Below, one piece after another: positions 613-13,193 of a stretch of DNA of 64,000 bases. Within the stretch, counting starts at the first letter, position 1. Every line of letters begins with the position of its first letter. Origin of the DNA: Gammaproteobacteria bacterium (GTDB taxonomy: Bacteria > Pseudomonadota > Gammaproteobacteria > VBWC01); the NCBI GenBank assembly GCA_006218035.1, contig VBWC01000005.1, positions 14,226 to 78,225 of the forward strand, read 5' to 3'. A program made the translations under genes and the position numbers. A model generated the notes under the pieces. It was not told where the DNA came from and did not search any database. It saw nothing but the letters and a program-made list of their open reading frames with translations.

Positions 613-750
613 TTGGATGCAGGGAGGAATCTCGACGACGTGGCAGCGATCAAATCAGAAATCTTAAACAGGTTTGGCCTTCGTCGGGCTGAATATCCCG
701 ATCGCCCTGAACAGGAGAAAGGACAGGTGGTACATGGCGCTACATCCTGA
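613..750 (+). CDS. Possible short leader ORF before the restriction gene
   Basis: A TTG codon follows a good GAGG ribosome site with seven bases between, and opens a 45-codon frame rich in charged residues. It ends inside the start of the helicase gene in another frame, an arrangement that would allow translational coupling. I recognise no family, and it could be chance or the remnant of a lost gene. The rest of 433-733 shows nothing I can name. Confidence 0.25.
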   Translation: MDAGRNLDDVAAIKSEILNRFGLRRAEYPDRPEQEKGQVVHGATS

Positions 751-3448
751 CTTCCCGAAATCACCCTATGCAACACTGTTGCCGGATCAGCGTTGGTTTC
801 CGGCGGCCGAGGAGCTTCGGAGCACCGCTTACGAAAAACTGTTGCCGCCACTCGTCGCCAAGATTCGTAGCGAAGTCTCGGCGTGGCGGGGCGCGGGTTA
901 TGCAGGTGCTTCGGAAACATCGCGCGCACTCCTGAACTGGTGGTTCGGGATCGAGCACCTGGTCGAGCAGGCCGACGGCACGCTGTCACCGTTCCGTTAT
1001 TACTTCGCGCAACGCGAAGCGGTAGAGACGGTGATCTGGCTGCATGATGTGCGCAAGGTGCACGACAAGTTTGACCTGCTGCGCTTCGACGCTTCGGGTG
1101 CCGTTTCGACCAACATGTTCGACGAGGACTGGCCGCGTTACGTGGTCAAGATGGCCACCGGCGCGGGCAAAACGAAGGTTCTGTCGTTGCTCATCGCGTG
1201 GAGTTATTTCCATAAGCTCTACGAAACGGACTCAACACTCGCGCGAAACTTCCTGTTGATCGCCCCGAATATCATTGTGCTCGACCGTCTGCGCGCCGAC
1301 TTCGACGGACTGCGCATCTTCTTCAACGACCCCATTCTTCCTGACAACGGTCACCAAGGCTGTAACTGGCGCGACGACTTCCAGGTCACGCTACATATTC
1401 AAGACAACGTCAGGGTGCAGCGGGGTACGGGCAACCTTTTCCTCACCAACATCCACCGCGTCTATCTCGGCGATGTGCGCGAGCCGTCGCTGGATGATGA
1501 AGATTTGCGCGACTACTTTCTCGAACCGTTCGGCTCAAAGCCCGTGGGCAAGACGACTGATAGCAAAACTGATCTCGGTGAGATCGTGCGCGAGCTGGAT
1601 GAGCTGGTCGTGTTCAATGACGAAGCGCACCACATCCACGACCCCAAAATGGCCTGGTTCAAAAGCATCCAGGACATTCATCACCGGATGTTGCAGAAGG
1701 ACGGCCGCCTGGCCTTGCAAGTGGACGTGACCGCCACGCCGCGACACAACAACGGCGCGATCTTCGTGCAGACCGTTTCGGACTACCCGCTCGTCGAGGC
1801 CATCCACCAGAACGTCGTCAAGCATCCGGTACTGCCGGATGCCGCCAGTCGCACCCGGTTGCTAGAGCACAAGAGTGCGCTCTTCACCGAGCGTTACGAA
1901 GACTACCTGCAACTCGGCATCGAAGAGTGGCGCAAGAGCTATGCAGAACACGAAGTGCTTGGCAAGAAAGCTGTGCTCTTTGTCATGGTGGACGACACCC
2001 GCAACTGCGATGAAGTCGGCGCCCACCTGGAGAAAATTTGCCCCGAGCTGGAAGGAGCAGTGCTCGTCATTCACACCAAGAACAACGGCGAAATTTCCGA
2101 GGCCGCCTCGGGCAAGAACAAGGACGAACTCGAAAGGCTCCGCAAGGAAGCCAACGACATCGACACATGGAAGTCGCCGCACAAGGCCATCGTCTCGGTG
2201 CTGATGCTCAAAGAAGGCTGGGATGTGCGCAACGTCACCACCATCGTCGGCCTGCGCGCCTACGTGGCGCCAGCAAACATCCTTCCCGAACAAACTTTGG
2301 GGCGGGGTTTACGCCGCATGTACTTTGGGTCGGACATGCCTGAAACGGTCTCGGTCATGGGCACGCCCGCCTTCATGGAGTTTGTCGAGTCCATCCAGAG
2401 CGAAGGCGTCACCTTCGAGCGCGTGCCGATGGGTCCGGACACCGGTCGCAAGGATTCTCTCATTGTTGAGGTGGACACGCAGGACACCGACAAGGACATC
2501 GACGCGCTGGACATCGAACTGCCCCGGCTCACGCGGCGCTTCAACCGCGAATACAAAGACCTCGATGCACTCGACCCCGCAAGATTCGGCAATGCCAAGC
2601 TTCCGCTCAAGCCCTTCACGCCGGAGCAAACGCGCGAGATCGTCTTTAAGACCATGATCGACGCCGAGGTGCATCACACCATCCAGCTTGACGGTGCCGG
2701 ACCCGCCGACTACCGTTCCGTCGTCGGTTTTTTTGCGCGTCAATTATTGAAGGAACTGCGCCTCGTCGGTGGCTACGATATTCTTTATCCCAAGGTGAAG
2801 GCGTTCATGGCCGGGTATCTGTTCGCGGCATCGCCAGTGAATCTCGAAGAGCCGGTGGTGCTGCGCAACCTCTCCGAGCCAGAGGCCGGGAAGATTTTGT
2901 TCGATGCATTTAAAACCGCCATCAATGCGCTTACCATTCAGGACACCGGCTCGGTGCGGATCGAAGACCGCATTCGCCTGCGCGACACGCGCCCATTCCG
3001 CACCGAGAACCGGCCCTACCTCGCGCCGAAGAAATCACTGTTCAGCAAAATCGTCGGCGAACCGCACGCCGGTGGCTTCGAGCTGACCTTCGCCGGTTTT
3101 CTCGATGCAGCACCGGACGTCGTATCGTTTGCTAAAAACTATCTCGCCGTCGGCTTCAAGATCGACTACGTCAGGGCCGACGGCGATCTCTCGAACTATG
3201 TTCCCGACTTTTTCGTGAAGACAACTGAAGGTACAGTCTGGGTCGTCGAAACCAAAGGCCGCGAAGAACGCGACCTGCCACAGAAGATGGCACGTCTGCG
3301 CCAGTGGTGTGAGGATGCTACGAGCGCGAGCCAGGCTGATGGCGGATCAGCTTACCGCTTCGTGTACGTGGATCAGCAAGGTTACGAGCGCAACCCGCCG
3401 AAGAATTTTGCAGGCCTTGCCAGCAGCTTTAGAGAATTTCAAGCATGA
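734..3448 (+). CDS. Type III-like restriction endonuclease, DEAD/DEAH helicase-nuclease subunit
   Basis: This 904-residue protein joins an SF2 helicase motor to a C-terminal nuclease. The Walker A motif ATGAGKT lies near residues 141-147 and the DEAH box at 296-299. A PD-(D/E)XK-type site is formed by D825 in PDF and by E839 and K841 in ETKG. The N-terminus (LHPDFPKSPYA, then RWFPA) resembles the BPTD_3080 family of restriction enzymes, from memory. The ATG at 734 was preferred over an upstream TTG (674) because it follows a GGAGAAAGGA ribosome site. It overlaps the next gene by four bases, so it heads an operon that includes the methyltransferase at 5168. Expected role: ATP-dependent cutting of unmodified foreign DNA. 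Confidence 0.85.
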   Translation: MALHPDFPKSPYATLLPDQRWFPAAEELRSTAYEKLLPPLVAKIRSEVSAWRGAGYAGASETSRALLNWWFGIEHLVEQADGTLSPFRYYFAQREAVETVIWLHDVRKVHDKFDLLRFDASGAVSTNMFDEDWPRYVVKMATGAGKTKVLSLLIAWSYFHKLYETDSTLARNFLLIAPNIIVLDRLRADFDGLRIFFNDPILPDNGHQGCNWRDDFQVTLHIQDNVRVQRGTGNLFLTNIHRVYLGDVREPSLDDEDLRDYFLEPFGSKPVGKTTDSKTDLGEIVRELDELVVFNDEAHHIHDPKMAWFKSIQDIHHRMLQKDGRLALQVDVTATPRHNNGAIFVQTVSDYPLVEAIHQNVVKHPVLPDAASRTRLLEHKSALFTERYEDYLQLGIEEWRKSYAEHEVLGKKAVLFVMVDDTRNCDEVGAHLEKICPELEGAVLVIHTKNNGEISEAASGKNKDELERLRKEANDIDTWKSPHKAIVSVLMLKEGWDVRNVTTIVGLRAYVAPANILPEQTLGRGLRRMYFGSDMPETVSVMGTPAFMEFVESIQSEGVTFERVPMGPDTGRKDSLIVEVDTQDTDKDIDALDIELPRLTRRFNREYKDLDALDPARFGNAKLPLKPFTPEQTREIVFKTMIDAEVHHTIQLDGAGPADYRSVVGFFARQLLKELRLVGGYDILYPKVKAFMAGYLFAASPVNLEEPVVLRNLSEPEAGKILFDAFKTAINALTIQDTGSVRIEDRIRLRDTRPFRTENRPYLAPKKSLFSKIVGEPHAGGFELTFAGFLDAAPDVVSFAKNYLAVGFKIDYVRADGDLSNYVPDFFVKTTEGTVWVVETKGREERDLPQKMARLRQWCEDATSASQADGGSAYRFVYVDQQGYERNPPKNFAGLASSFREFQA

Positions 3449-5091
3449 CCACGTCGGAGCAAATTGCTGAATGGCTCGCAGCACCAGAAGGTAGGCAACT
3501 GGAGTTCAAGACCGCTTCCACCAGCTTTCATTTCGATAAGCTGGTGGACTACTGCGTGGCGGTCGCGAACGAAGGTGGCGGTAAGATCATCCTGGGCGTC
3601 ACGGATCGCCGGCCCCGAGATGTGGTGGGCACTGCCGCATTTGCCGAGCCGGGGCGAACCGAAGCAGGACTTTACGAGCGGCTTCGTCATCATATTCGCA
3701 TCGAGGAAACTCGCTATCGGGACAAGCGCCTCCTTATCGTGCATGTGCCTGGCCGATTGCCGGCTACAGCCTGGGAACACAATGGCCGCTACCTGCGCCG
3801 CGCCGGCGATGATTTGGTGTCGATCCCCGTAAACGAACTTCGTGCCATATTTGCGGAAGCCGGCCCGGACTATTCCGCTGAGCCATGTGCAGCAACGCCG
3901 GCCGATCTGGCGCCGCAGGCATTGGCCGATTTTCGTCATCGCTGGGTACGCAAGGCGGCTAACCCACGCATCGCGGACTGGAGTGTCGAGCGGATGCTGA
4001 AGGATGCTGAGCTACTCGTGGATGGCCGATTGAACATCGCCGCACTTGTGCTTTTTGGTACCCGCGAGGCGCTGGGAAGGCACCTGGCTCAGGCAGAAAT
4101 CGTTTTTGAATATCGCTCATCCGAAGCCTCAGGCCCAGCGCAAGAGCGAGTTGAATATCGCGAAGGTTTTCTTCTTTGCCAGGATGCACTCTGGCAGCGT
4201 ATCAACTTGCGCAACGACCGGCAGAGTTATCAGGACGGCCTTTTCCGCTATGACATACCGACCTTTGACGAAACCGCTGTCCGCGAAGCCCTGCTGAATG
4301 CCGTGGCGCACCGCGACTACCGGCTGGGAGGTTCGATTTTCGTCCGGCAATATGCGCGGCGTCTCGAAATTGTCAGCCCCGGCGGATTCCCGCCGGGTAT
4401 CACGGTGGAGAACATCGTAGATCAGCAGAACCCCCGCAACCGCCGTCTGGCTGAGGCTCTGGGCAAATGTGGCTTGATCGAGCGCTCAGGTCAGGGCTTG
4501 AATCTCATGGTTGAAACGGCAATCCGTCAGAGCAAACCGCTGCCGGATTTCTCCGGTTCGGCTGCACATGAAGTGAGGCTGACGTTGGAAGGCACGGTTC
4601 AAGATGCCGCCTTTGTGCGCTTTCTGGAGCATGTTGGCGAAGCGCGACTGCGTTCCTTCTCGACACATGACTTTCTTATTCTCGATGCTTTGCGGCGTGA
4701 AAAGCCGCTGACCGATTTTCAATGCTCGCGCCTGCCGGCGTTGATCGAGGCCGGGGCAGTCGAGTCGCATGGGCACGGCCGCGGCGTACGTCATATGCTT
4801 TCGCGTAACCTCTATGCCGCAATCGGGAAACGGGGCGCCTACACTCGCAAGCGTGGTCTCGATCATGAAACTAACAAGGAACTGCTCTTCAAGCACATCC
4901 GGGAAAACGACGTCGACGGTAGCCCACTGGGTGACCTCAGGCAGGTATTGCCGGCCCTCAGCGGCAAGCAAGTCCAGAATCTCTTGCAGCAGTTGCGAGA
5001 CGAAGGCCGCGTTCGTGTTATAGGCGCCAGGCGCTGGGCACGCTGGTATATAGCCCCAGCCATGCCCCTAAAGCCGGATACAGGGTCTTAA
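3445..5091 (+). CDS. AlbA_2 (Schlafen-like) domain and ATPase-domain protein
   Basis: This 548-residue protein starts in an ATGA overlap with the restriction subunit. Residues about 10-130 match the AlbA_2 (Schlafen AAA_4) domain, including the pattern RQLEFKTA and the glycine-rich GGGKIILGV. Residues about 265-350 carry a HATPase_c_4-like region with LLNAVAHRDY near 283, followed by SPGGFPPG and IERSGQG. The C-terminus looks like a winged helix. Such COG2865-type proteins are called RecG-like or transcriptional regulators and are common in defence islands. Its place between restriction and methylation genes suggests an accessory or regulatory role, which is inference. Confidence 0.75.
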   Translation: MTTSEQIAEWLAAPEGRQLEFKTASTSFHFDKLVDYCVAVANEGGGKIILGVTDRRPRDVVGTAAFAEPGRTEAGLYERLRHHIRIEETRYRDKRLLIVHVPGRLPATAWEHNGRYLRRAGDDLVSIPVNELRAIFAEAGPDYSAEPCAATPADLAPQALADFRHRWVRKAANPRIADWSVERMLKDAELLVDGRLNIAALVLFGTREALGRHLAQAEIVFEYRSSEASGPAQERVEYREGFLLCQDALWQRINLRNDRQSYQDGLFRYDIPTFDETAVREALLNAVAHRDYRLGGSIFVRQYARRLEIVSPGGFPPGITVENIVDQQNPRNRRLAEALGKCGLIERSGQGLNLMVETAIRQSKPLPDFSGSAAHEVRLTLEGTVQDAAFVRFLEHVGEARLRSFSTHDFLILDALRREKPLTDFQCSRLPALIEAGAVESHGHGRGVRHMLSRNLYAAIGKRGAYTRKRGLDHETNKELLFKHIRENDVDGSPLGDLRQVLPALSGKQVQNLLQQLRDEGRVRVIGARRWARWYIAPAMPLKPDTGS

Positions 5092-5167
5092 GCCGGGTTT
5101 AAAGAGATAAATGAGTTAAATGAAATCAATTTGTTATAAAGCCCAATCCGTCCTGCTAAAGGCTTGA

Positions 5168-7555
5168 ATGGCCCGAAGAACACCGATGTCAAAAACCTCA
5201 AAACCTGCCTACGAAATTTCCGACGCCGAAAAGCGCGACCTGATCCAGCTCATCCAGCAGGGTAAACCGCTGCCGGAGAAATACCGTTTCATCCTGTTCG
5301 AGGACAAGCGCGAGGTGGAGCTGGTGTGGAACGGCAAGAACCGCGAAGTGTGCACCACCGTGCTGCCGTTCCAATCGCTGGAGCACGTGGACGAGCCGCG
5401 TCAGGAGAAACCGGAACTCGGCACGCGAGACATGTTCGACACCCGCGGCCGCCAGCTCAAGGGCTGGACCAACAAGCTCATCTGGGGCGACAACAAGCTG
5501 ATTCTATCCTCGCTCAAGAGCGGCGCGTTACGCCGCCAGATCGAGGACGCGGGCGGCCTCAAGCTCATTTACATCGACCCGCCCTTCGACGTCGGTGCCG
5601 ACTTTTCGATGGACATCGAGATCGGCGGCGAGACCTTCCACAAGGAGCCGAACCTGCTGGAGCAGATCGCCTACCGCGACACCTGGGGGCGCGGGGCGGA
5701 TTCGTTCATCTCGATGATTTACGAGCGGTTGATTTTGATGCGGGATTTGATGGCGGAGGAGGGGAGCATCTATTTGCACATTGGCCCAGCCGTGAATCAT
5801 TTTCTCCGCAGCGTCTTCGATGAAGTTTTCGGAAGAGCGAACTCTCGGCGCGAGATTATATGGAAGCGCGTCTCTTCGCGTAGCCACGGTGACTATTATC
5901 CGGCGACACACGACTACATTCTCTTCTATTCAAAAACAGATAGCCCTGTATGGAACCAACTCTACGAACCCCTTAACGATGAATATGTGGAGACAAAGTA
6001 TCGCTTCGCTGATCCAGATGGGCGGCGGTATCGGAAAGACAATTGCCTTAACCAAAATCCAGACCGCCCGAACCTGACTTACGAATGGAATGGCCACATA
6101 CGCACTTGGCGTTGGACGAAGGACAAGATGCAGGGATTGCATGATGCGGGTCGGTTGATTTACACGAAGAGTGGAATCCCGGAATACAAGCGTTACCTTG
6201 ATGAGTCCGAAGGCATCGCTCTGCAATCTGTCTGGACCGACATCAATCCAGTGAACTCACAGGCACGAGAAGACACGGATTACCCCACCCAAAAACCCGA
6301 AGCACTGCTCGAACGTATCATCAAAGCCAGCAGCAACGAAGGCGACCTCGTCGCCGATTTCTTCTGCGGCTCCGGCACCACGGCGGTGGTGGCGGAAAAG
6401 CTCGGCCGCAAGTGGATTGCCACCGACCTCGGCAAGTTCGGCATCCACACTACGCGCAAGCGGCTGATCCAGGTGCAACGCGAGTTGAAAGATACCGGAA
6501 AACCGTTTCGCGCCTTCGAAGTGCTGAACCTCGGCCGCTATGAGCGCCAAGCGTATCTAAACATCGGCGGGCGGCTCACTGGCAAGCAGAAAGAACAAGC
6601 GCTGATGCAAAAGGAGCGCGAGTTCCGCGATCTGATCCTGCGCGCATATCGCGCCGAGCCGCTGGAGGGCGAGAGTTTTTTCCACGGCAAAAATGCGGGA
6701 CGCTTAGTGGTGATCGGCCCTATCAATTTGCCCGTGGGCCGGCTGTTCGTAGAAGAGGTCATCACCGAATGCCGCAAGCGCGGCGCTTCGCGCGTGGACA
6801 TGCTCGCCTTCGAGTTCGAGATGGGCCTGTTCCCCGCCGTGCTCGACGAGGCGAAGCAAAAGGGCATTGATCTCACGCCGAAGCAGATTCCTCCCGAAGT
6901 GTTCGACAAACGAGCGGTAGAAAAAGGACAAGTGGTGTTTTTCGACATCAGCTTCATCGAGGCGATGCCGCGTCACGCCAAGAAAGATAAATTCACGCTC
7001 CAGATCGAGTTGACCGACTTCTCTGTTTACTACACGCAAGGCGCGGCAGAAGCCGCCGCCGTGAGCCTCAAGGACGGCAAAAGCCAAGTCGTGTGCGAAC
7101 AGGGCCAACTCATCAAGGTGAGCAAAAACAAGGAAGGCGTCCTCACGCGCGACATCCTCACCAAACACTGGGCCGACTGGGTGGACTACTGGGCCGTGGA
7201 CTTCGACTACATGAGCCGCAAGGAAATTATCAAGGTGGCAGTGGGCAGCGGCGTGGACGGCGCGCTGCCCTCACCCCCAACCCCTCTCCCGGAGGGAGAG
7301 GGGGGCGATGTTGCCTCTCTCTCCGGGAGAGGCCGGCGCGAAGCGTCGGGTGAGGGAGAATTCGAAGAGCGCTGGACCGGCAGCTACATCTTCGAAAACG
7401 AATGGCAAAGCTTCCGCACCCGCAAGAATCGCGATCTGGAAATGATTTCCGCGCCGCACACCTATGCCGCCAAAGGCCGCTACACCGTCGCCGTGAAAGT
7501 GATCGACATCTTCGGCAACGACACGATGGTTCTGGTGCCGGTGAGCGTGGGATAG
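5168..7555 (+). CDS. mod: Type III-like site-specific adenine-N6 DNA methyltransferase
   Basis: The protein has 795 residues. The catalytic DPPF motif is at 137-140 and the S-adenosylmethionine motif FCGSGTT at 399-405, so the motif order is that of the beta class of amino-methyltransferases, as in type III Mod. The N-terminus and a long C-terminal part fit the Mod partners of BPTD_3080-like nucleases. Residues about 701-730 (low-complexity P, G, E and R) are encoded by a palindromic repeat inserted without breaking the frame. The gene lies 76 bases after the AlbA_2 gene and is probably in the same operon. It should methylate adenine in the recognition site and protect host DNA. ATG 5168 follows AAAGG; an ATG at 5186 is an alternative. 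Confidence 0.88.
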   Translation: MARRTPMSKTSKPAYEISDAEKRDLIQLIQQGKPLPEKYRFILFEDKREVELVWNGKNREVCTTVLPFQSLEHVDEPRQEKPELGTRDMFDTRGRQLKGWTNKLIWGDNKLILSSLKSGALRRQIEDAGGLKLIYIDPPFDVGADFSMDIEIGGETFHKEPNLLEQIAYRDTWGRGADSFISMIYERLILMRDLMAEEGSIYLHIGPAVNHFLRSVFDEVFGRANSRREIIWKRVSSRSHGDYYPATHDYILFYSKTDSPVWNQLYEPLNDEYVETKYRFADPDGRRYRKDNCLNQNPDRPNLTYEWNGHIRTWRWTKDKMQGLHDAGRLIYTKSGIPEYKRYLDESEGIALQSVWTDINPVNSQAREDTDYPTQKPEALLERIIKASSNEGDLVADFFCGSGTTAVVAEKLGRKWIATDLGKFGIHTTRKRLIQVQRELKDTGKPFRAFEVLNLGRYERQAYLNIGGRLTGKQKEQALMQKEREFRDLILRAYRAEPLEGESFFHGKNAGRLVVIGPINLPVGRLFVEEVITECRKRGASRVDMLAFEFEMGLFPAVLDEAKQKGIDLTPKQIPPEVFDKRAVEKGQVVFFDISFIEAMPRHAKKDKFTLQIELTDFSVYYTQGAAEAAAVSLKDGKSQVVCEQGQLIKVSKNKEGVLTRDILTKHWADWVDYWAVDFDYMSRKEIIKVAVGSGVDGALPSPPTPLPEGEGGDVASLSGRGRREASGEGEFEERWTGSYIFENEWQSFRTRKNRDLEMISAPHTYAAKGRYTVAVKVIDIFGNDTMVLVPVSVG
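7268..7356. repeat. REP-like palindromic repeat (family A) inside the methyltransferase gene
   Basis: The outer arms ccctcaccc and gggtgaggg are perfectly inverted and enclose a CTCTCCC/GGGAGAG hairpin. Related elements occur between genes at 19424-19514 and 58255-58367. This copy alone is in a coding region, where the reading frame passes through it and adds about 30 residues. Confidence 0.8.
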
Positions 7556-7620
7556 TGCGGAAGGAGTCGTCGTTTTCCGTAAAGGTGTTTACAATTAACG
7601 CGAGTTGAAGGAAAAACGGC

Positions 7621-8385
7621 GTGGAACTGATTAAAGAACTCAAAAACAAGCCTCTGGTGGAGGCGCTATTCGAGGTGAGATGGGGGCTGGATGGACCGCC
7701 GGGTATGGCGGTGGACCCTGCTTACCAGATACTCATCGGCCAACTGTACGGTCAGATTCAGAAACGTTTTCCCTATGCAGTACGCCTGCCAACCGCTGAG
7801 ATTCCCGAGCAGATGGTGCCATTCATCCCCCAACACCAGTTCCGGGTAGGCCACGACGCTTGGCCGCTGGTTCAGCTTGGTCCCGGTCTCTTAACGGTGA
7901 ACGACACGGAAGCGTACCTGTGGGACGATTTTTTTGAGGTATGTAGTTATGTGGTGAGCGCCTTGTTCACGGTGTATCCGCAGTCGGAACGACCCCTGCG
8001 TATCGTCGAGGTTTCGCTTCGTTATATTGATGCCGATATACTTGAGGGCGCGGCGGCCATTGAGTTCCTAAAGAAGCTCAAGATAGATATTGGGTTGCCG
8101 CCTTTCTTATTTGAAGATGGTCGCGTAGGTGGATTGCCCTTGGGGGTTGGATTGTCCTTGGCCTATCCAACCGCAGAGCCCCGTGGGACCATCCGTTTGG
8201 TATTCAACCAAGGGCGCAAATCCGATAAGGACGCCCTGATATGGGAAACGCAGGTTACATCCCGTGGTGAAGATGCCCCAACCGATCCCGGGCGTATCGT
8301 CGAATGGCTCGACAAGGCACACGGCATCACACACGATTGGTTTATACGCCTCATTGAGGGCGAGTTATTGGAGAAGTACCGATGA
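7621..8385 (+). CDS. TIGR04255 family protein
   Basis: This 254-residue protein begins with GTG after an AAGGAAAAA ribosome site. The start (LVEALFEVRW), the central segment with VNDTEAYLWDDF, and the late VEVSLRYID fit the sporadically distributed TIGR04255 family, whose function is unknown. It has no signal peptide or membrane span, so it is likely cytoplasmic. It shares an ATGA overlap with the next gene, which in turn sits five bases before a YhaV toxin, so the three should be translated together. Its occurrence downstream of restriction-modification genes suggests a defence or toxin-antitoxin setting; no activity can be assigned. Confidence 0.7.
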   Translation: MELIKELKNKPLVEALFEVRWGLDGPPGMAVDPAYQILIGQLYGQIQKRFPYAVRLPTAEIPEQMVPFIPQHQFRVGHDAWPLVQLGPGLLTVNDTEAYLWDDFFEVCSYVVSALFTVYPQSERPLRIVEVSLRYIDADILEGAAAIEFLKKLKIDIGLPPFLFEDGRVGGLPLGVGLSLAYPTAEPRGTIRLVFNQGRKSDKDALIWETQVTSRGEDAPTDPGRIVEWLDKAHGITHDWFIRLIEGELLEKYR

Positions 8386-8771
8386 CCATGCTGCAAACTG
8401 CCGGGCGTAGTTCTAATGCCATTGAGCTTATGGCTCGTCGTGGTTATCACTTGGCCCGCGAATCCCAGCAGCCTGGTGTCCGTGATGTCGCGTGCTGGCG
8501 TGATGCGGCCATTGTCTCTCTCGTGGCTATTGGCGCGCTGACCACCAATCCAGCACTCACCTATAGCGTTCATATTACGACTGGCCCGACCAATCCGGTC
8601 ATTGCCGTGCCGGACTTGGAAAGCGAATGGTTTGCTGAAGACGATGCTGATATGGCCAATTTCCTTGCGCTCATGGATGCCCTGATGGGGCGGCGCCCCG
8701 ACTTGGTGACACCGGCCGACGAAGAGCAGCTAAGCCGTATCGCTGCCCTGGTTGCGAACGTGAAGGTCTAA
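8382..8771 (+). CDS. Unknown small protein between TIGR04255 and YhaV; candidate antitoxin
   Basis: A 129-residue protein I do not recognise. It starts in an ATGA overlap with the TIGR04255 gene and stops five bases before the YhaV start, so it is surely co-translated. It is acidic in its second half (EWFAEDDADM) and has a moderately hydrophobic stretch near residues 45-60 that is too short and interrupted to call a membrane helix. The position immediately before a toxin is the usual place for an antitoxin, but it lacks the AbrB-like swapped-hairpin pattern of PrlF, the known YhaV antitoxin. Function is therefore inferred from context only. Confidence 0.7.
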   Translation: MTMLQTAGRSSNAIELMARRGYHLARESQQPGVRDVACWRDAAIVSLVAIGALTTNPALTYSVHITTGPTNPVIAVPDLESEWFAEDDADMANFLALMDALMGRRPDLVTPADEEQLSRIAALVANVKV

Positions 8772-8776
8772 AGTTG

Positions 8777-9229
8777 ATGGTTGTGAATGGATGGAGCCTT
8801 TTCTACTTCAGGTTGTTCGCCGATATTCTGCACAGGCTTGAACAGGAGGTTACTGAGCTGGCACGAAAAGACCCAGTTGGTTATATCCATCATGAAAAAG
8901 CAAAGCTGTTGAAGTCGGTGCATGACAGCATAACGAAAGATGTGCCGACCAATCCCAATGACGCCAAGTTCCGGCTGGGAAAAACACTGGGTGACCGTTT
9001 CACCGATTGGCGCCGCGTAAAATACGGTTTGCCACAGCGCTATCGGCTGTTCTTCAAGTTCACCAGCGCGCAGCGGAAAATAATCTATGCGTGGCTCAAC
9101 GACGAGCATACCTTGCGCAAGGATGGGTCCAAGACCGACGTTTATGAAGTGTTTAAAAAAATGCTTCGGCGTGGTGGAGTTCCAGATTCCATCGAGGATT
9201 TGTTGAAAGGCTCGACTGCTCCGCAATAG
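8777..9229 (+). CDS. yhaV: YhaV-family type II toxin (RelE-like ribonuclease)
   Basis: This 150-residue protein follows the YhaV pattern along its whole length: VNGW at the start, HEKAKLLKSVH, then DRFTDWRRVKYG, QRYRLFFKF, the AWLNDEHTLR segment, and the ending MLRRGGVP. E. coli YhaV is a RelE-superfamily translation-dependent mRNase neutralised by the AbrB-like antitoxin PrlF. No prlF-like gene is present; the preceding gene is unrelated. The ATG at 8777 was taken rather than the overlapping TTG at 8774. It probably acts in the cytoplasm when its partner is lost. Confidence 0.88.
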   Translation: MVVNGWSLFYFRLFADILHRLEQEVTELARKDPVGYIHHEKAKLLKSVHDSITKDVPTNPNDAKFRLGKTLGDRFTDWRRVKYGLPQRYRLFFKFTSAQRKIIYAWLNDEHTLRKDGSKTDVYEVFKKMLRRGGVPDSIEDLLKGSTAPQ

Positions 9230-9299
9230 CGAATACCGGGGTCAGATCAAAGTTTCTGCCAATATTCGCATCCGCTGAACCCACGCCGGGGGCGAATCC

Positions 9300-9809
9300 A
9301 TGACCATGCCACTCTTGATCCATTGCACGCAGAAGCTGTTGGCGGAAATCCCGGACCGCCTCGTTGACCCGTCCACTTCGGGTGAGAGCTGGCATGCCAA
9401 TCTGCTGCGCATTGACCGGCGCAAGTGCGTGTTATTCACGCACGATGCGACCTTGTACTCGGTGTTCGTGCCGGGATTGAAGAAACCGGAGTTCGAGCAC
9501 TTGGACGAGGTCTTCGGCCAGCGATTGTTCAAGGCGCTGCTGTGGGACGGGTTTCCCCAAACGCAGATCGAGTGGATGCTGGAGGCTTGCCGCGTGATTC
9601 GCTGCACCCGCTCCAGCAACCGCAGCGTGCTGGGTTCGATGAACGACATCCGGTTTCATGTCGGATTGCATGTGGAAGGCGACGGTGGCCTGGCAAGTGT
9701 TGATCTGGCTCAGCTCCAGCACAGGCTGAACCGCATTCCCTTTGGTGCCATCGGCTACGGGTATCCGGTCGAGCGGCTTCAGAAATTCCTGACGCAAGCG
9801 CCCGGCTAG
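9300..9809 (+). CDS. DUF6933-like protein
   Basis: A 169-residue soluble protein beginning LLIHCTQKLLAEIP, a start I associate with the DUF6933 family, whose function is unknown. It contains the conserved-looking YSVFVPGLKK and the late segment NRIPFGAIGY. A second ATG lies two codons downstream. It follows the toxin gene by 70 bases, in which a short GGGGTCAGA-type dispersed piece occurs, and may be the last gene of the island before hslR. Family membership is from memory. Confidence 0.6.
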   Translation: MTMPLLIHCTQKLLAEIPDRLVDPSTSGESWHANLLRIDRRKCVLFTHDATLYSVFVPGLKKPEFEHLDEVFGQRLFKALLWDGFPQTQIEWMLEACRVIRCTRSSNRSVLGSMNDIRFHVGLHVEGDGGLASVDLAQLQHRLNRIPFGAIGYGYPVERLQKFLTQAPG

Positions 9810-9849
9810 TGTTTCTGCCGTAAAATCGGCGATGGTGAGAACATCGGGA

Positions 9850-10257
9850 ATGGTCGTGGCAGAAATAAAGGTTAGCCAGCTTCGCATCGACAAATGGCTT
9901 TGGGCGGCGCGGTTTTTCAAAACGCGCTCACTGGCCGCGGCCGCGGTTGCGGGCGGCAAGGTCAAGCTGAATGGCGAGCGCGTGAAGGCAGCCAGGGCGA
10001 TTCGGCTTGGCGATGAATTGAGCATCCGTGTCGGCCCCTATGAATACGGTGTACGGGTGCTGGGATTGTCCGGCCGGCGCGGTCCGGCACCGGAAGCCGC
10101 TTTGCTTTATGCAGAAAGCATTCAGAGTAAAACGGCACGGGAAGCACTGGCTGCCCGGCTTGCCGCCGAAAGAATTTATGATTCCCATGAAAAAGGGCGC
10201 CCGACTAAAAAAGCGCGGCGTCAGATTATTCGATTTAAAAATTCAGGGATTGCATGA
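9850..10257 (+). CDS. hslR: Heat-shock protein 15 (HslR), S4-domain RNA-binding protein
   Basis: The protein (about 135 residues) has an S4 RNA-binding domain at its N-terminus: LRIDKWLWAARFFKTRSLA, then GGKVKLNGE and the IRLGDEL turn. The basic C-terminus (KGRPTKKARRQI) is typical of HslR. In E. coli Hsp15 binds free 50S subunits that carry stalled nascent chains and helps recycle them. Starts at 9832 (ATG), 9850 (ATG) and 9856 (GTG) are all possible; none has a strong ribosome site. It looks like the first native chromosomal gene to the right of the defence island. Confidence 0.85.
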   Translation: MVVAEIKVSQLRIDKWLWAARFFKTRSLAAAAVAGGKVKLNGERVKAARAIRLGDELSIRVGPYEYGVRVLGLSGRRGPAPEAALLYAESIQSKTAREALAARLAAERIYDSHEKGRPTKKARRQIIRFKNSGIA

Positions 10258-10258
10258 A

Positions 10259-10740
10259 ACAGGAACAGTTAGATGGGCGAGCGGTTTGAGGCCGCTGGTG
10301 TTGCAGGGCGAGGCCGGCTACAGCCGCAAGAGCGCGCAGCCCGACATGCCGAACAGGCGGGCTGGGACTGGTTCGCGCTGCAGCTGAGCGATGGCCGCGA
10401 CCTGATGTTCTACCGGTTGCGGAATAAAGACGGCTCGGCGAGCGATTTCAGCGGCGGCACATTGATCGCGCCGGACGGCACCACGCAGCGCCTCGCCGTG
10501 AAAGACATCATCATCGAAGCGCTTGATCACTGGCGCAGCCCCCGCACCGGCACGCGCTATCCGTCCCGCTGGCGCCTGCAACTGCCGTCGCAGTCGTTGT
10601 CGCTCGACATCGCGCCTGTGATCAACGATCAGGAGCTCGATCTCTCGGTACGGTACTGGGAGGGTGCAGTGTCGATAAAAGGCGCCGCCGGTGGCAAACC
10701 ACTCGGCGGCACCGGTTATGTCGAGCTTGCCGGGTACTAA
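10259..10740 (+). pseudogene. Relic of a second AttH/CrtC-like gene
   Basis: Two pieces of the AttH family lie in different frames. The first (from about 10291) reads PLVLQGEAGYSRKSAQP, a mid-protein signature. The second (from about 10346) reads AEQAGWDWFALQL through YWEGAV to the stop at 10740 and parallels the intact 3' end at 1-432. The roughly 40-50 residues that should join them are missing, the frame is shifted, and the N-terminal half is gone. At nucleotide level the two copies agree only moderately outside a conserved core, so this is an old paralog or an old duplicate. Confidence 0.8.
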
Positions 10741-11059
10741 CCCGCCGGGATATCGCCCCGGGCAACCCCGATTCCGGATATCGACAGGGCGCGGTTAAAG
10801 AAACCGGTCCCGGTCTCTTTCGTCCGGCAGATAACACGCGTCGCCGCGGCCGAACCATCGGTACCGGTGTCTGCCGACGAAACCGTAGAGGGCGTCCCTG
10901 ACAGGACGCGGTATTGCGATATCGGAGTCATCGATGCAACACCATGTGCGGGATGCATGTTGAAACTGTTTTGCTCGCCGCAACCTTGCGATAACCCGCT
11001 ACCGGTCCTGTCGGTTGCCATTGTGATGCGGCGTCTGCTGTGGCGAGGGTAGCGGGCGC
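10741..11059. other. Intergenic stretch with no recognisable gene
   Basis: Between the AttH relic and the symporter relic I find no family signature on either strand. A minus-strand frame of 94 codons exists but has no ribosome site or recognisable pattern. Since both neighbours are relics, this is probably further decayed coding DNA. Confidence 0.4.
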
Positions 11060-11296
11060 ATGACTGAACTGATTACGTCCATCAACGACATCGTCTGGGG
11101 TCCGGCGATGCTCGTCCTGATTCTCGGTACGGGTATCTATCTGAGTATCGGTCTGCGCTTCATCTCCCTGCGCAGGATTGGCTACGGCTTCAAACTGCTA
11201 TGGCAAGGCCGCGCCCCGCACGGCGAGGGCGATATCAGCACGTTCGGCGCGCTGATGACGGCGCTGTCGGCAACCATCGGCACCGGCAACATTGCG
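11060..11296 (+). pseudogene. 5' fragment of a sodium:alanine symporter (AGCS family)
   Basis: The first 79 codons give a convincing N-terminus of an AlsT/AGCS sodium:amino acid symporter: a first membrane helix (PAMLVLILGTGIYLSIGLRF), then FGALMTALSATIGTGNIA, which is the conserved TGN region of the family. The similarity ends abruptly at 11296, where the sequence becomes part of an unrelated gene on the other strand. The frame then runs on meaninglessly to a stop at 11419. A full symporter has about 450 residues, so this cannot work. Confidence 0.8.
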
Positions 11297-11430
11297 GATG
11301 ATGGCGCTACTCTCCCCGAGGCGAAACCCGTTGTCATCCAACATCGGGACCAGGCAGTTGGGGTTGAGTGCCTTGTACTCGGGCTTGAGGTGCTCACCGG
11401 AGGATGGCCCATCTTATAAAATCTTTTGTT
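11295..11430 (-). pseudogene. Fragment of a glutathione S-transferase
   Basis: Read on the minus strand, this piece gives SGEHLKPEYKALNPNC, then LVPMLDDNGF and LGESSAII. This is the second half of a GST thioredoxin-fold domain, with the cis-proline (VP) and the glutathione-binding ESSAI. A stop codon (TAA) interrupts the frame near 11421 and the piece ends at the junction with the symporter relic, so neither a start nor the helical C-terminal domain is present. Confidence 0.7.
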
Positions 11431-11497
11431 TAGGCGGAAGGTTGTTCACCGTCTCCACACGTAGCGTTGATGGTGCCTGTGGAGTGTCACCCTGCCG

Positions 11498-11577
11498 GGC
11501 TTTAGTACGGCGCGCATGCCGATCTGTTTGTCCATCCGGCATTCGAAAACGGCCTGGCATTATTCTACAGATCGGGA
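11498..11577 (-). pseudogene. Fragment of a ubiB-like gene
   Basis: About 80 bases match the interior of the intact ubiB at 13767-13845, including an identical run of 25 bases. On the minus strand it translates to a degraded version of FERWMDEQIGMRAVLKS and has an in-frame stop. It is the remnant of a partial duplication or of a paralog. The remainder of 11431-11673 shows nothing else. Confidence 0.75.
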
Positions 11578-11673
11578 TAGAACTAGCGACCCGCCAAAAA
11601 CGGGTTCAGCTCACTGTGATCCGTTATTTATTCTCTTGGGCACCTCAAGCTAACGCCCGTTCCGGAAACCGCT

Positions 11674-11979
11674 TCATATTACCAATATTAAAAACAACAA
11701 TACTCCCAGTACAGTCGCGCCGATCGTGCTTCTGGTCGTAAACTGGTGTTCCGGCTTACTCTTGAATGCCGCCGGTGACTCGGGGGGTGCTTCATCAACC
11801 CCGTTACGCTGTAAGGTTGCCAGCGCAACGGTAATCGATTGTTGAGTAAACACAGAAGTATCGCTTTGTTCGCGCACATTCCCGCCATCAGCAGCTGAGC
11901 CGATAAAATCCTTTGCAGAAGCGCTGGCAGGGAAAACGATGACAAGAAGTACAACGAGTACAGCGATAGTCGGTCTCAT
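11674..11979 (-). CDS. Small exported protein with C-terminal membrane anchor
   Basis: A 101-residue protein with a clear signal peptide (hydrophobic core VLVVLLVIVF, cleavage after ASASA) and a second hydrophobic helix at the very C-terminus (ATVLGVLLFLILVI). The short stretch between is polar and would face the periplasm. The ATG follows a strong AAGGAG ribosome site with good spacing, which supports a real gene. I recognise no family. It stands alone between the relics and the lipoprotein gene on the same strand. Confidence 0.65.
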   Translation of the reverse strand: MRPTIAVLVVLLVIVFPASASAKDFIGSAADGGNVREQSDTSVFTQQSITVALATLQRNGVDEAPPESPAAFKSKPEHQFTTRSTIGATVLGVLLFLILVI

Positions 11980-12198
11980 CCGAATCTCCTTTGCAACAGG
12001 TCTTTCCCGCGAGGTGTAAGCACAGTTAATTTCCTGGACTTCTGCTCATCTTCATCGGGGTCAGTATAGCCGATGGTCGATGTCTGCTACAGGTGGCAGG
12101 ATAAACGGCGCCACAGTTCGATTTTCCGCGCAATGATGACGCTTGATTCTGTAACAACACCAATTAAAACACCCCGGATACCGACTATTCTCCTGACG

Positions 12199-12747
12199 CT
12201 ACTGCCAGGTGCTGCCATCATCCCAGTTGAAGCCGTTCCAGATGGCGGTGCCGGCCCCGCCCGCCTGGCGAGCGCACAGAATCTCCAGCACAAGTTCGCT
12301 GCCAGGCGTGCTGCGCAGCTCGACGGATAGCGTGTTCCGGGCTAACAGATGCACGGCCCGCTCGATAATCTGTGTATGCCCGCTGAAATAACGCGGGCCA
12401 ATCACGGTCGTTCCGTTGAGACGGATGACCGCGCTGTGAACGGCTGATTTTTTATTGGAAGCCGCCCCGCTATGGACAACGAGCTTGCAAACCGCCGCCA
12501 CGTTGTCCGCCGGGAAAGAAGCGTTTCTGGTAATCGGCGCTCCATGGCCGCGCACGTAACGCTCCGGGCCGAAAACCGACCGATAACCATCGGTTCTCAA
12601 TGCACCTGACTGGTTGTTGAACGAAACACCGGTAGCCGTGGCGTTAGACCCTGTCGTCGTATCGCCGCTGCCGCAGCCCGATAGCAAGGCAAACAACAAG
12701 ACCCATATTCCGATGTGGCTACGCTGCGTGCATTGGCTGATGGTCAA
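12199..12747 (-). CDS. Putative lipoprotein of unknown function
   Basis: This 182-residue product has a lipoprotein signal peptide: a basic n-region, the core IGIWVLLFALLSG, and the lipobox LSGC followed by GSGD, which would favour outer-membrane sorting. I chose the TTG start because it follows GGAAGGAG at good spacing, whereas the upstream ATG at 12786 has none and would give an awkward N-terminus. The mature part has two or three cysteines and a predicted beta-rich pattern (VIRLNGTTVIGP, LSVELRSTPG). No known family seen. Confidence 0.6.
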   Translation of the reverse strand: MTISQCTQRSHIGIWVLLFALLSGCGSGDTTTGSNATATGVSFNNQSGALRTDGYRSVFGPERYVRGHGAPITRNASFPADNVAAVCKLVVHSGAASNKKSAVHSAVIRLNGTTVIGPRYFSGHTQIIERAVHLLARNTLSVELRSTPGSELVLEILCARQAGGAGTAIWNGFNWDDGSTWQ

Positions 12748-12887
12748 TTCACGGCTCCTTCCATGGACGAATGAGTTCAGACCCAATTGTTACTGCGGCT
12801 GCCATGTCTGGCTTTCTAATCGCCGCGAGATATTCAACTTTGCCCCGGTATATTGAGTCTTCGCTTGGGCACAGGGTTAGGCCGATA

Positions 12888-13193
12888 TCACCCCCACTTC
12901 TTGCCGAGTTGCTCCAGGCCAGCTTTTTGCAAATCCTCCGGGCTCATCAGAATACGAAATTTGCAACTGGCCTGGAAGTTGAGAAAGAAGGGTTCCGCAA
13001 AGAAGGGCACGTCCGACGAAGCCTTTACATCGATGACGAAGAATCCGCCGCGTTTTCCGTCTTGCTCAGTGAAGTAGGCCGTCTCCGGCTTGATGGTTTC
13101 GAGGATACGCCCGATGAGCTCCCCCGCCTTGCCGCTTCTGACGAGGGAGTTGAAAGGCTCCAGCGGGAATTCAACAGTAAGCAGCATTTTCAT
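12888..13193 (-). CDS. Small alpha/beta protein of unknown function
   Basis: A 101-residue cytoplasmic protein starting MKMLLTVEFPLEPFN after an AAGGAG ribosome site. Its alternating strands and helices (ETAYFTEQDGKRGGFFVIDV, then SPEDLQKAGLEQLGKKW) suggest a ferredoxin-like alpha/beta fold. Similar short proteins are sometimes labelled panthothenate synthetase in databases, probably wrongly; I would not use that name. It has no operon partner at close range. Confidence 0.65.
   Translation of the reverse strand: MKMLLTVEFPLEPFNSLVRSGKAGELIGRILETIKPETAYFTEQDGKRGGFFVIDVKASSDVPFFAEPFFLNFQASCKFRILMSPEDLQKAGLEQLGKKWG

Follow-up and report, generated by a model that had tools for sequence, protein, structure and literature searches.

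A candidate tripartite toxin–antitoxin module on a bacterial defence island combines a TIGR04255 protein, a rebuilt PrlF and a YhaV toxin

Several described systems serve as references for the locus considered here. In the PrlF–YhaV pair of E. coli, the prlF-yhaV operon is under the control of PrlF, a DNA-binding protein of the AbrB superfamily (PMC5408214). In the tripartite TAC modules, such as HigBAC and CmdTAC, SecB is a third gene that has been grafted onto unrelated toxin–antitoxin pairs (PMC5105189), and such a module can sense phage, as a phage capsid protein pulls the chaperone away and the toxin is freed (PMC11618068). In the Panacea-type networks (PanAT, NetFlax), neutralising or accessory domains are shuffled across unrelated toxins, with the shared domain being located inside the antitoxin.

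The locus was analyzed within a window of 64,000 nucleotides, this being the whole stretch of DNA under study, from a Gammaproteobacteria bacterium. Three genes are found there on the forward strand. The first (7621..8385, with a GTG start) encodes a TIGR04255-family protein of 254 aa, the second (8382..8771), which shares an ATGA overlap with the first, encodes a putative antitoxin of 129 aa, and the third encodes a YhaV ribonuclease toxin that ends at 9229 and starts either with TTG at 8774, giving 151 aa, or with ATG at 8777, giving 150 aa. The ATG is the likelier start, as it fits the family alignment, and places a five-base gap between the second and third genes. All three reading frames are open, intact and translationally coupled, and the ATGA overlap and the five-base gap agree with an earlier note made from the sequence alone. 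The identities given there to the two outer genes were likewise borne out, with NCBIfam TIGR04255.1 matching the first protein at 109.5 bits (E 2.3e-31; curated cut-off 30) and the Pfam family Toxin_YhaV (PF11663) matching the third at 156 bits (E 6.8e-46; cut-off 35). The genome contains one YhaV and one TIGR04255 in total, and no sigma-70 promoter consensus was found near the module. The window YhaV keeps arginines 81, 91 and 115, which are invariant in the family. Unlike the toxin of the classic PrlF–YhaV pair, it belongs to a divergent branch that has a short insertion (KYGLPQRYRLFF). No solved structure was significantly matched in sequence by either YhaV or TIGR04255.

When 84,980 species were scanned with the YhaV subfamily of the window, the exact triad, in the same order and with overlapping or abutting genes, was recovered in three further MAGs, namely those of a Nitrosovibrio (L137), a Gallionella (L138) and a bacterium (L143). 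Relative to the window copies, identities in these genomes are 59-60% for TIGR04255, 37-40% for the homologues of the 129-aa protein and 60-65% for YhaV. DNA similarity between the window (positions 4001-13000 were compared) and these loci is limited to the three genes. For the two closest copies, L137 and L138, dN/dS values are 0.07, 0.13 and 0.18 for the three genes, indicating that all of them have been kept functional by purifying selection. The triad is rare, being found in only one of 369 genomes of the class, the window's own. Nonetheless, the conserved co-occurrence for which the earlier note had suggested looking was found, and the triad is a real conserved three-gene unit rather than a chance arrangement.

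The same note had described the 129-aa protein as an unrecognised partner other than PrlF. This description does not hold for residues 84-129 (8631..8768, forward strand), the putative toxin-binding tail, which align with the C-terminal half of classic PrlF proteins in a profile–profile comparison with hhalign (95.5% probability, E 1.5e-8), such that the toxin-binding half of PrlF is present. The PrlF family in Pfam (PF15937) matches the 129-aa protein itself weakly (E 0.006, model positions 46-90 of 99), and the same C-terminal region is matched in the homologues (positions 46-90 in L137 and L138 and 51-90 in L143; E 0.0003-0.004), with the matches of all four small proteins (E 0.0003-0.006) lying below the gathering cut-off. 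The related claim that the known antitoxin PrlF is absent is supported for its AbrB half: Pfam and profile alignment detect no AbrB/SpoVT DNA-binding domain in residues 1-83 (8382..8630, forward strand), nor did Pfam find one in the other three copies, and the region matches no Pfam family. As the C-terminal third of the protein is PrlF-like, however, PrlF is not wholly absent. In the phylum sample, AbrB-type PrlF precedes YhaV in 18 of 20 usable YhaV loci, the two exceptions being the window and L025. The module thus resembles PrlF–YhaV in its toxin, in the antitoxin gene being found before the toxin gene and in the C-terminal half of PrlF, but differs in lacking a detectable AbrB half and in having an extra TIGR04255 gene placed first. 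The N-terminal region is conserved among the four triad copies only. Its profile found no relative among the partners of other TIGR04255 proteins, and no close relative of the 129-aa protein was found in the plasmids and viral contigs searched. An AF2 model of the protein has a mean pLDDT of 38 and is unusable for assigning a fold.

The PrlF tail is also found elsewhere. It occurs alone (64-70 aa) beside near relatives of the window YhaV in phages and Pseudomonas, on another front end of 109 aa that by eye resembles a MazE-type AbrB (GKST.IGNSNGFRF), on a front end that by eye is DUF104-like and on TPR-like proteins (weak Pfam matches). Homology to PrlF gives good support for neutralization of YhaV by the tail, and as the same tail appears on different front ends or alone beside near YhaV relatives, it looks like a portable YhaV-binding module that is probably the blocking part. 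Pairs of the tail and YhaV also occur widely in phages and pseudomonads with no TIGR04255 beside them, such that two genes can suffice, and one may ask whether the locus is an ordinary two-gene antitoxin–YhaV pair, with TIGR04255 being an independent defence or sensor gene in the same operon. We consider this unlikely, since the genes for TIGR04255 and the antitoxin overlap in each of the four triads, since the antitoxin N-terminal region is found only together with the TIGR04255 subfamily of the window, and since this layout is seen again with other, unrelated partners and toxins, as described below.

To place the triad among other TIGR04255 operons, 26 loci outside the genome of the window were read with longer flanks. 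A small gene overlaps or abuts the end of TIGR04255 in 20 of these 26 loci, and in most of these a third gene follows directly; at the criteria used, the other six loci have no convincing adjoining small gene. The weight for a three-gene order comes less from this count than from its recurrence in unrelated genomes with matching partner and third-gene families. The TIGR04255-first order is also found in Thermus, Kocuria, Phocaeicola and Vibrio plasmids, in Pseudomonas phage Dobby, in Sulfurimonas phage SNW-1 and in many prophage contigs. The third genes represent about ten unrelated families or sequence clusters, of which three are known ribonuclease toxins: YhaV (the window, L137, L138 and L143), PemK/MazF (L060, E 1.1e-18) and HEPN (Thermus plasmid pTB1, L296, E 4e-6, above the cut-off), with the third genes of L301 and L079 aligning with the HEPN protein of L296. 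The earlier proposal of a new YhaV three-gene system therefore stands as regards the conserved unit but was drawn too narrowly, as TIGR04255 also heads operons that carry other toxin families. The constancy of TIGR04255 across toxin families could also mean that it contacts the toxin itself, as the sensor or as a second antitoxin, with the small protein being an adaptor between the two. This we regard as very improbable, as YhaV, MazF and HEPN are unrelated, such that one protein binding all of them is less likely than one binding the variable middle protein, and as binding of YhaV is already explained by the PrlF-like tail.

The third slot of TIGR04255 operons moreover points to new candidate toxins. 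The largest third-gene clusters that belong to no known family share an SNTCD/QSCD-like motif. In L058, L061, L066, L075, L297 and L298, third genes of ~270-310 aa with a V(A/T)SQSCD/QTCD-like motif follow a middle protein with a helix-turn-helix, and this family is a candidate for new toxins. A second family of ~190-212 aa, most of whose members carry LSNTCD or LSNSCD, is found in L059, L062, L070, L076, L217, L240, L264, L267, L268, L269, L299 and L302, mostly in prophages or phages of proteobacteria and in a Phocaeicola plasmid. The third gene of L265 and L276 is HicA-like in motif only and has no Pfam or NCBIfam match, and was not counted as known. A hydrophobic segment of the middle proteins is striking by eye; when considered as a general 'chaperone-addiction' segment, it was no stronger than in shuffles (35 partners, Fisher p 0.54) and was rejected. 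Among YhaV partners, proteins of ~200-300 aa with a seemingly PrlF-like C-terminus fused to a TPR-like region were seen in L107, L160, L161, L164 and L165, which are deltaproteobacterial MAGs and a viral contig.

A literature search found no published function for TIGR04255, a family that 30 of the 399 genomes sampled from the phylum carry and for which the present locus offers a testable role. The window protein sets itself apart, together with its subfamily, by having WETQ in a C-terminal strand, at the place of the DxD seen in most members. Y99, F104, W101, E14, E18 and R20 are among the strongly conserved residues. An AF2 model of the protein (pLDDT 75.5, pTM 0.77) has TATA-binding proteins as its best fold matches in the PDB (E 1.6e-5), with poor superposition (TM 0.26/0.34), and given these low TM-scores any link to the TBP-like fold suggested by the model is weak. 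One better structural match, which is nameless, was found in BFVD (TM 0.50/0.61). An internal duplication, an idea taken from the TBP-like matches, was not seen when the profiles of the two halves were compared. The TATA-binding protein matches should be considered together with the missing AbrB half of the antitoxin and with the control of E. coli prlF-yhaV by a DNA-binding PrlF, as TIGR04255 might have replaced the lost AbrB domain as a DNA-binding autorepressor of the operon, with the antitoxin only blocking YhaV. TIGR04255 proteins are mostly acidic, however (pI 5.0 for the window protein and 4.7-6.8 for nearly all), unlike a DNA-binding saddle, which argues against DNA binding, and a second DNA binder would be redundant in those other TIGR04255 operons where the middle protein has a helix-turn-helix domain. 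Autorepression by TIGR04255 is thus improbable in our view. A relationship to SecB is also disfavored, as none was seen in Pfam scans of 16 TIGR04255 proteins or among the Foldseek matches listed.

The triad lies next to defence genes. In the window, it is preceded on the forward strand by genes for a ResIII helicase/restriction subunit (674-3448), a Schlafen/AlbA_2 protein (3445-5091) and a type III-like N6/N4 DNA methyltransferase (5168-7555), identified by Pfam and PADLOC, and this row may form a restriction-modification system that includes one further component. The triad adjoins a type I restriction-modification gene and an AAA ATPase in L137, a type I specificity subunit and an ABC-3C ATPase in L138, and a DUF2357/PD-(D/E)XK protein, an AAA ATPase and a DNA methylase in L143. 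Defence genes hence adjoin all four copies, and the module probably serves in phage defence.

On balance, we favor, with some reserve, a tripartite type II toxin–antitoxin module on a defence island, in which TIGR04255 would be the dedicated partner of the antitoxin. YhaV would act as a ribonuclease toxin that stops growth by cutting RNA, and the PrlF-like tail would bind and block it. The N-terminal region, which takes the place of the AbrB domain of PrlF, would be the part recognised by TIGR04255, which would keep the antitoxin folded or stable. Loss of TIGR04255 from the antitoxin, for instance to a phage protein as happens in CmdTAC, would make the antitoxin fail and set YhaV free. Of these steps, binding of the antitoxin by TIGR04255 is held with moderate confidence, while phage-triggered release of YhaV is a weaker suggestion. 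That TIGR04255 would control the antitoxin, be it as a chaperone or as a sensor, we infer by analogy, as SecB-type TAC modules likewise join one separate protein to antitoxins and toxins that can be exchanged.

By the same analogy, the module may work like TAC, with which it shares three genes, one constant gene grafted onto unrelated toxin–antitoxin pairs, and a defence context. It differs in that TIGR04255 is not related to SecB and stands first, whereas the TAC chaperone gene is usually the last in the operon, and in that the variable antitoxin region is N-terminal while the ChAD region of TAC is C-terminal; indeed, the 129-aa protein ends with its toxin-binding tail, has its extra region at the N-terminus and lacks a C-terminal chaperone-addiction extension. 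As in the Panacea-type networks, parts are shuffled across unrelated toxins, but in the present case what is shared is a protein of its own, and it is the middle protein that varies. The module is therefore neither a member of TAC, having no SecB and no C-terminal extension, nor a classic PrlF–YhaV pair, as no AbrB half was detected. It combines a known toxin with a rebuilt form of a known antitoxin and with an uncharacterised third component that recurs elsewhere, and suggests that there is a second route, independent of SecB, by which toxin–antitoxin pairs can acquire a control protein. More tentatively, and with some doubt on our part, TIGR04255 could define a hitherto undescribed class of three-part toxin–antitoxin systems for defence. 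It would then be a non-SecB partner protein, conserved in several phyla and in phages, that senses infection by phage and is coupled to antitoxins and ribonuclease toxins that can be exchanged for one another (the toxins being YhaV, MazF, HEPN and several unknown families).

Self-BLAST and comparison with a sister species (G001) revealed an exact direct repeat of 59 bp on either side of the ~10-kb defence island in which the module lies. The right copy is at 10288..10346 (forward strand) and the left copy lies 33-91 bases to the left of the window start (contig G000:C48). Both copies sit in a lipocalin-like gene (PF17186), of which the sister species has a single uninterrupted copy. A further repeat of 73% (30-410 versus 10347-10727) suggests that part of this gene was duplicated when the island was inserted. 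Within the island, the ResIII gene has a weak TnsA-like match at its C-terminal end, HATPase_c_4 is also present in the Schlafen/AlbA_2 protein, and a DUF6933 gene (9300-9809, E 4.6e-46) lies directly downstream of YhaV. Positions 7268-7304, inside the methyltransferase gene, encode PPTPLPEGEGG. This short stretch is seen again at two further sites of the sister genome and, by eye, within the lipocalin-like reading frame to the left of the window, and probably represents a dispersed repeat that was inserted into coding sequence.
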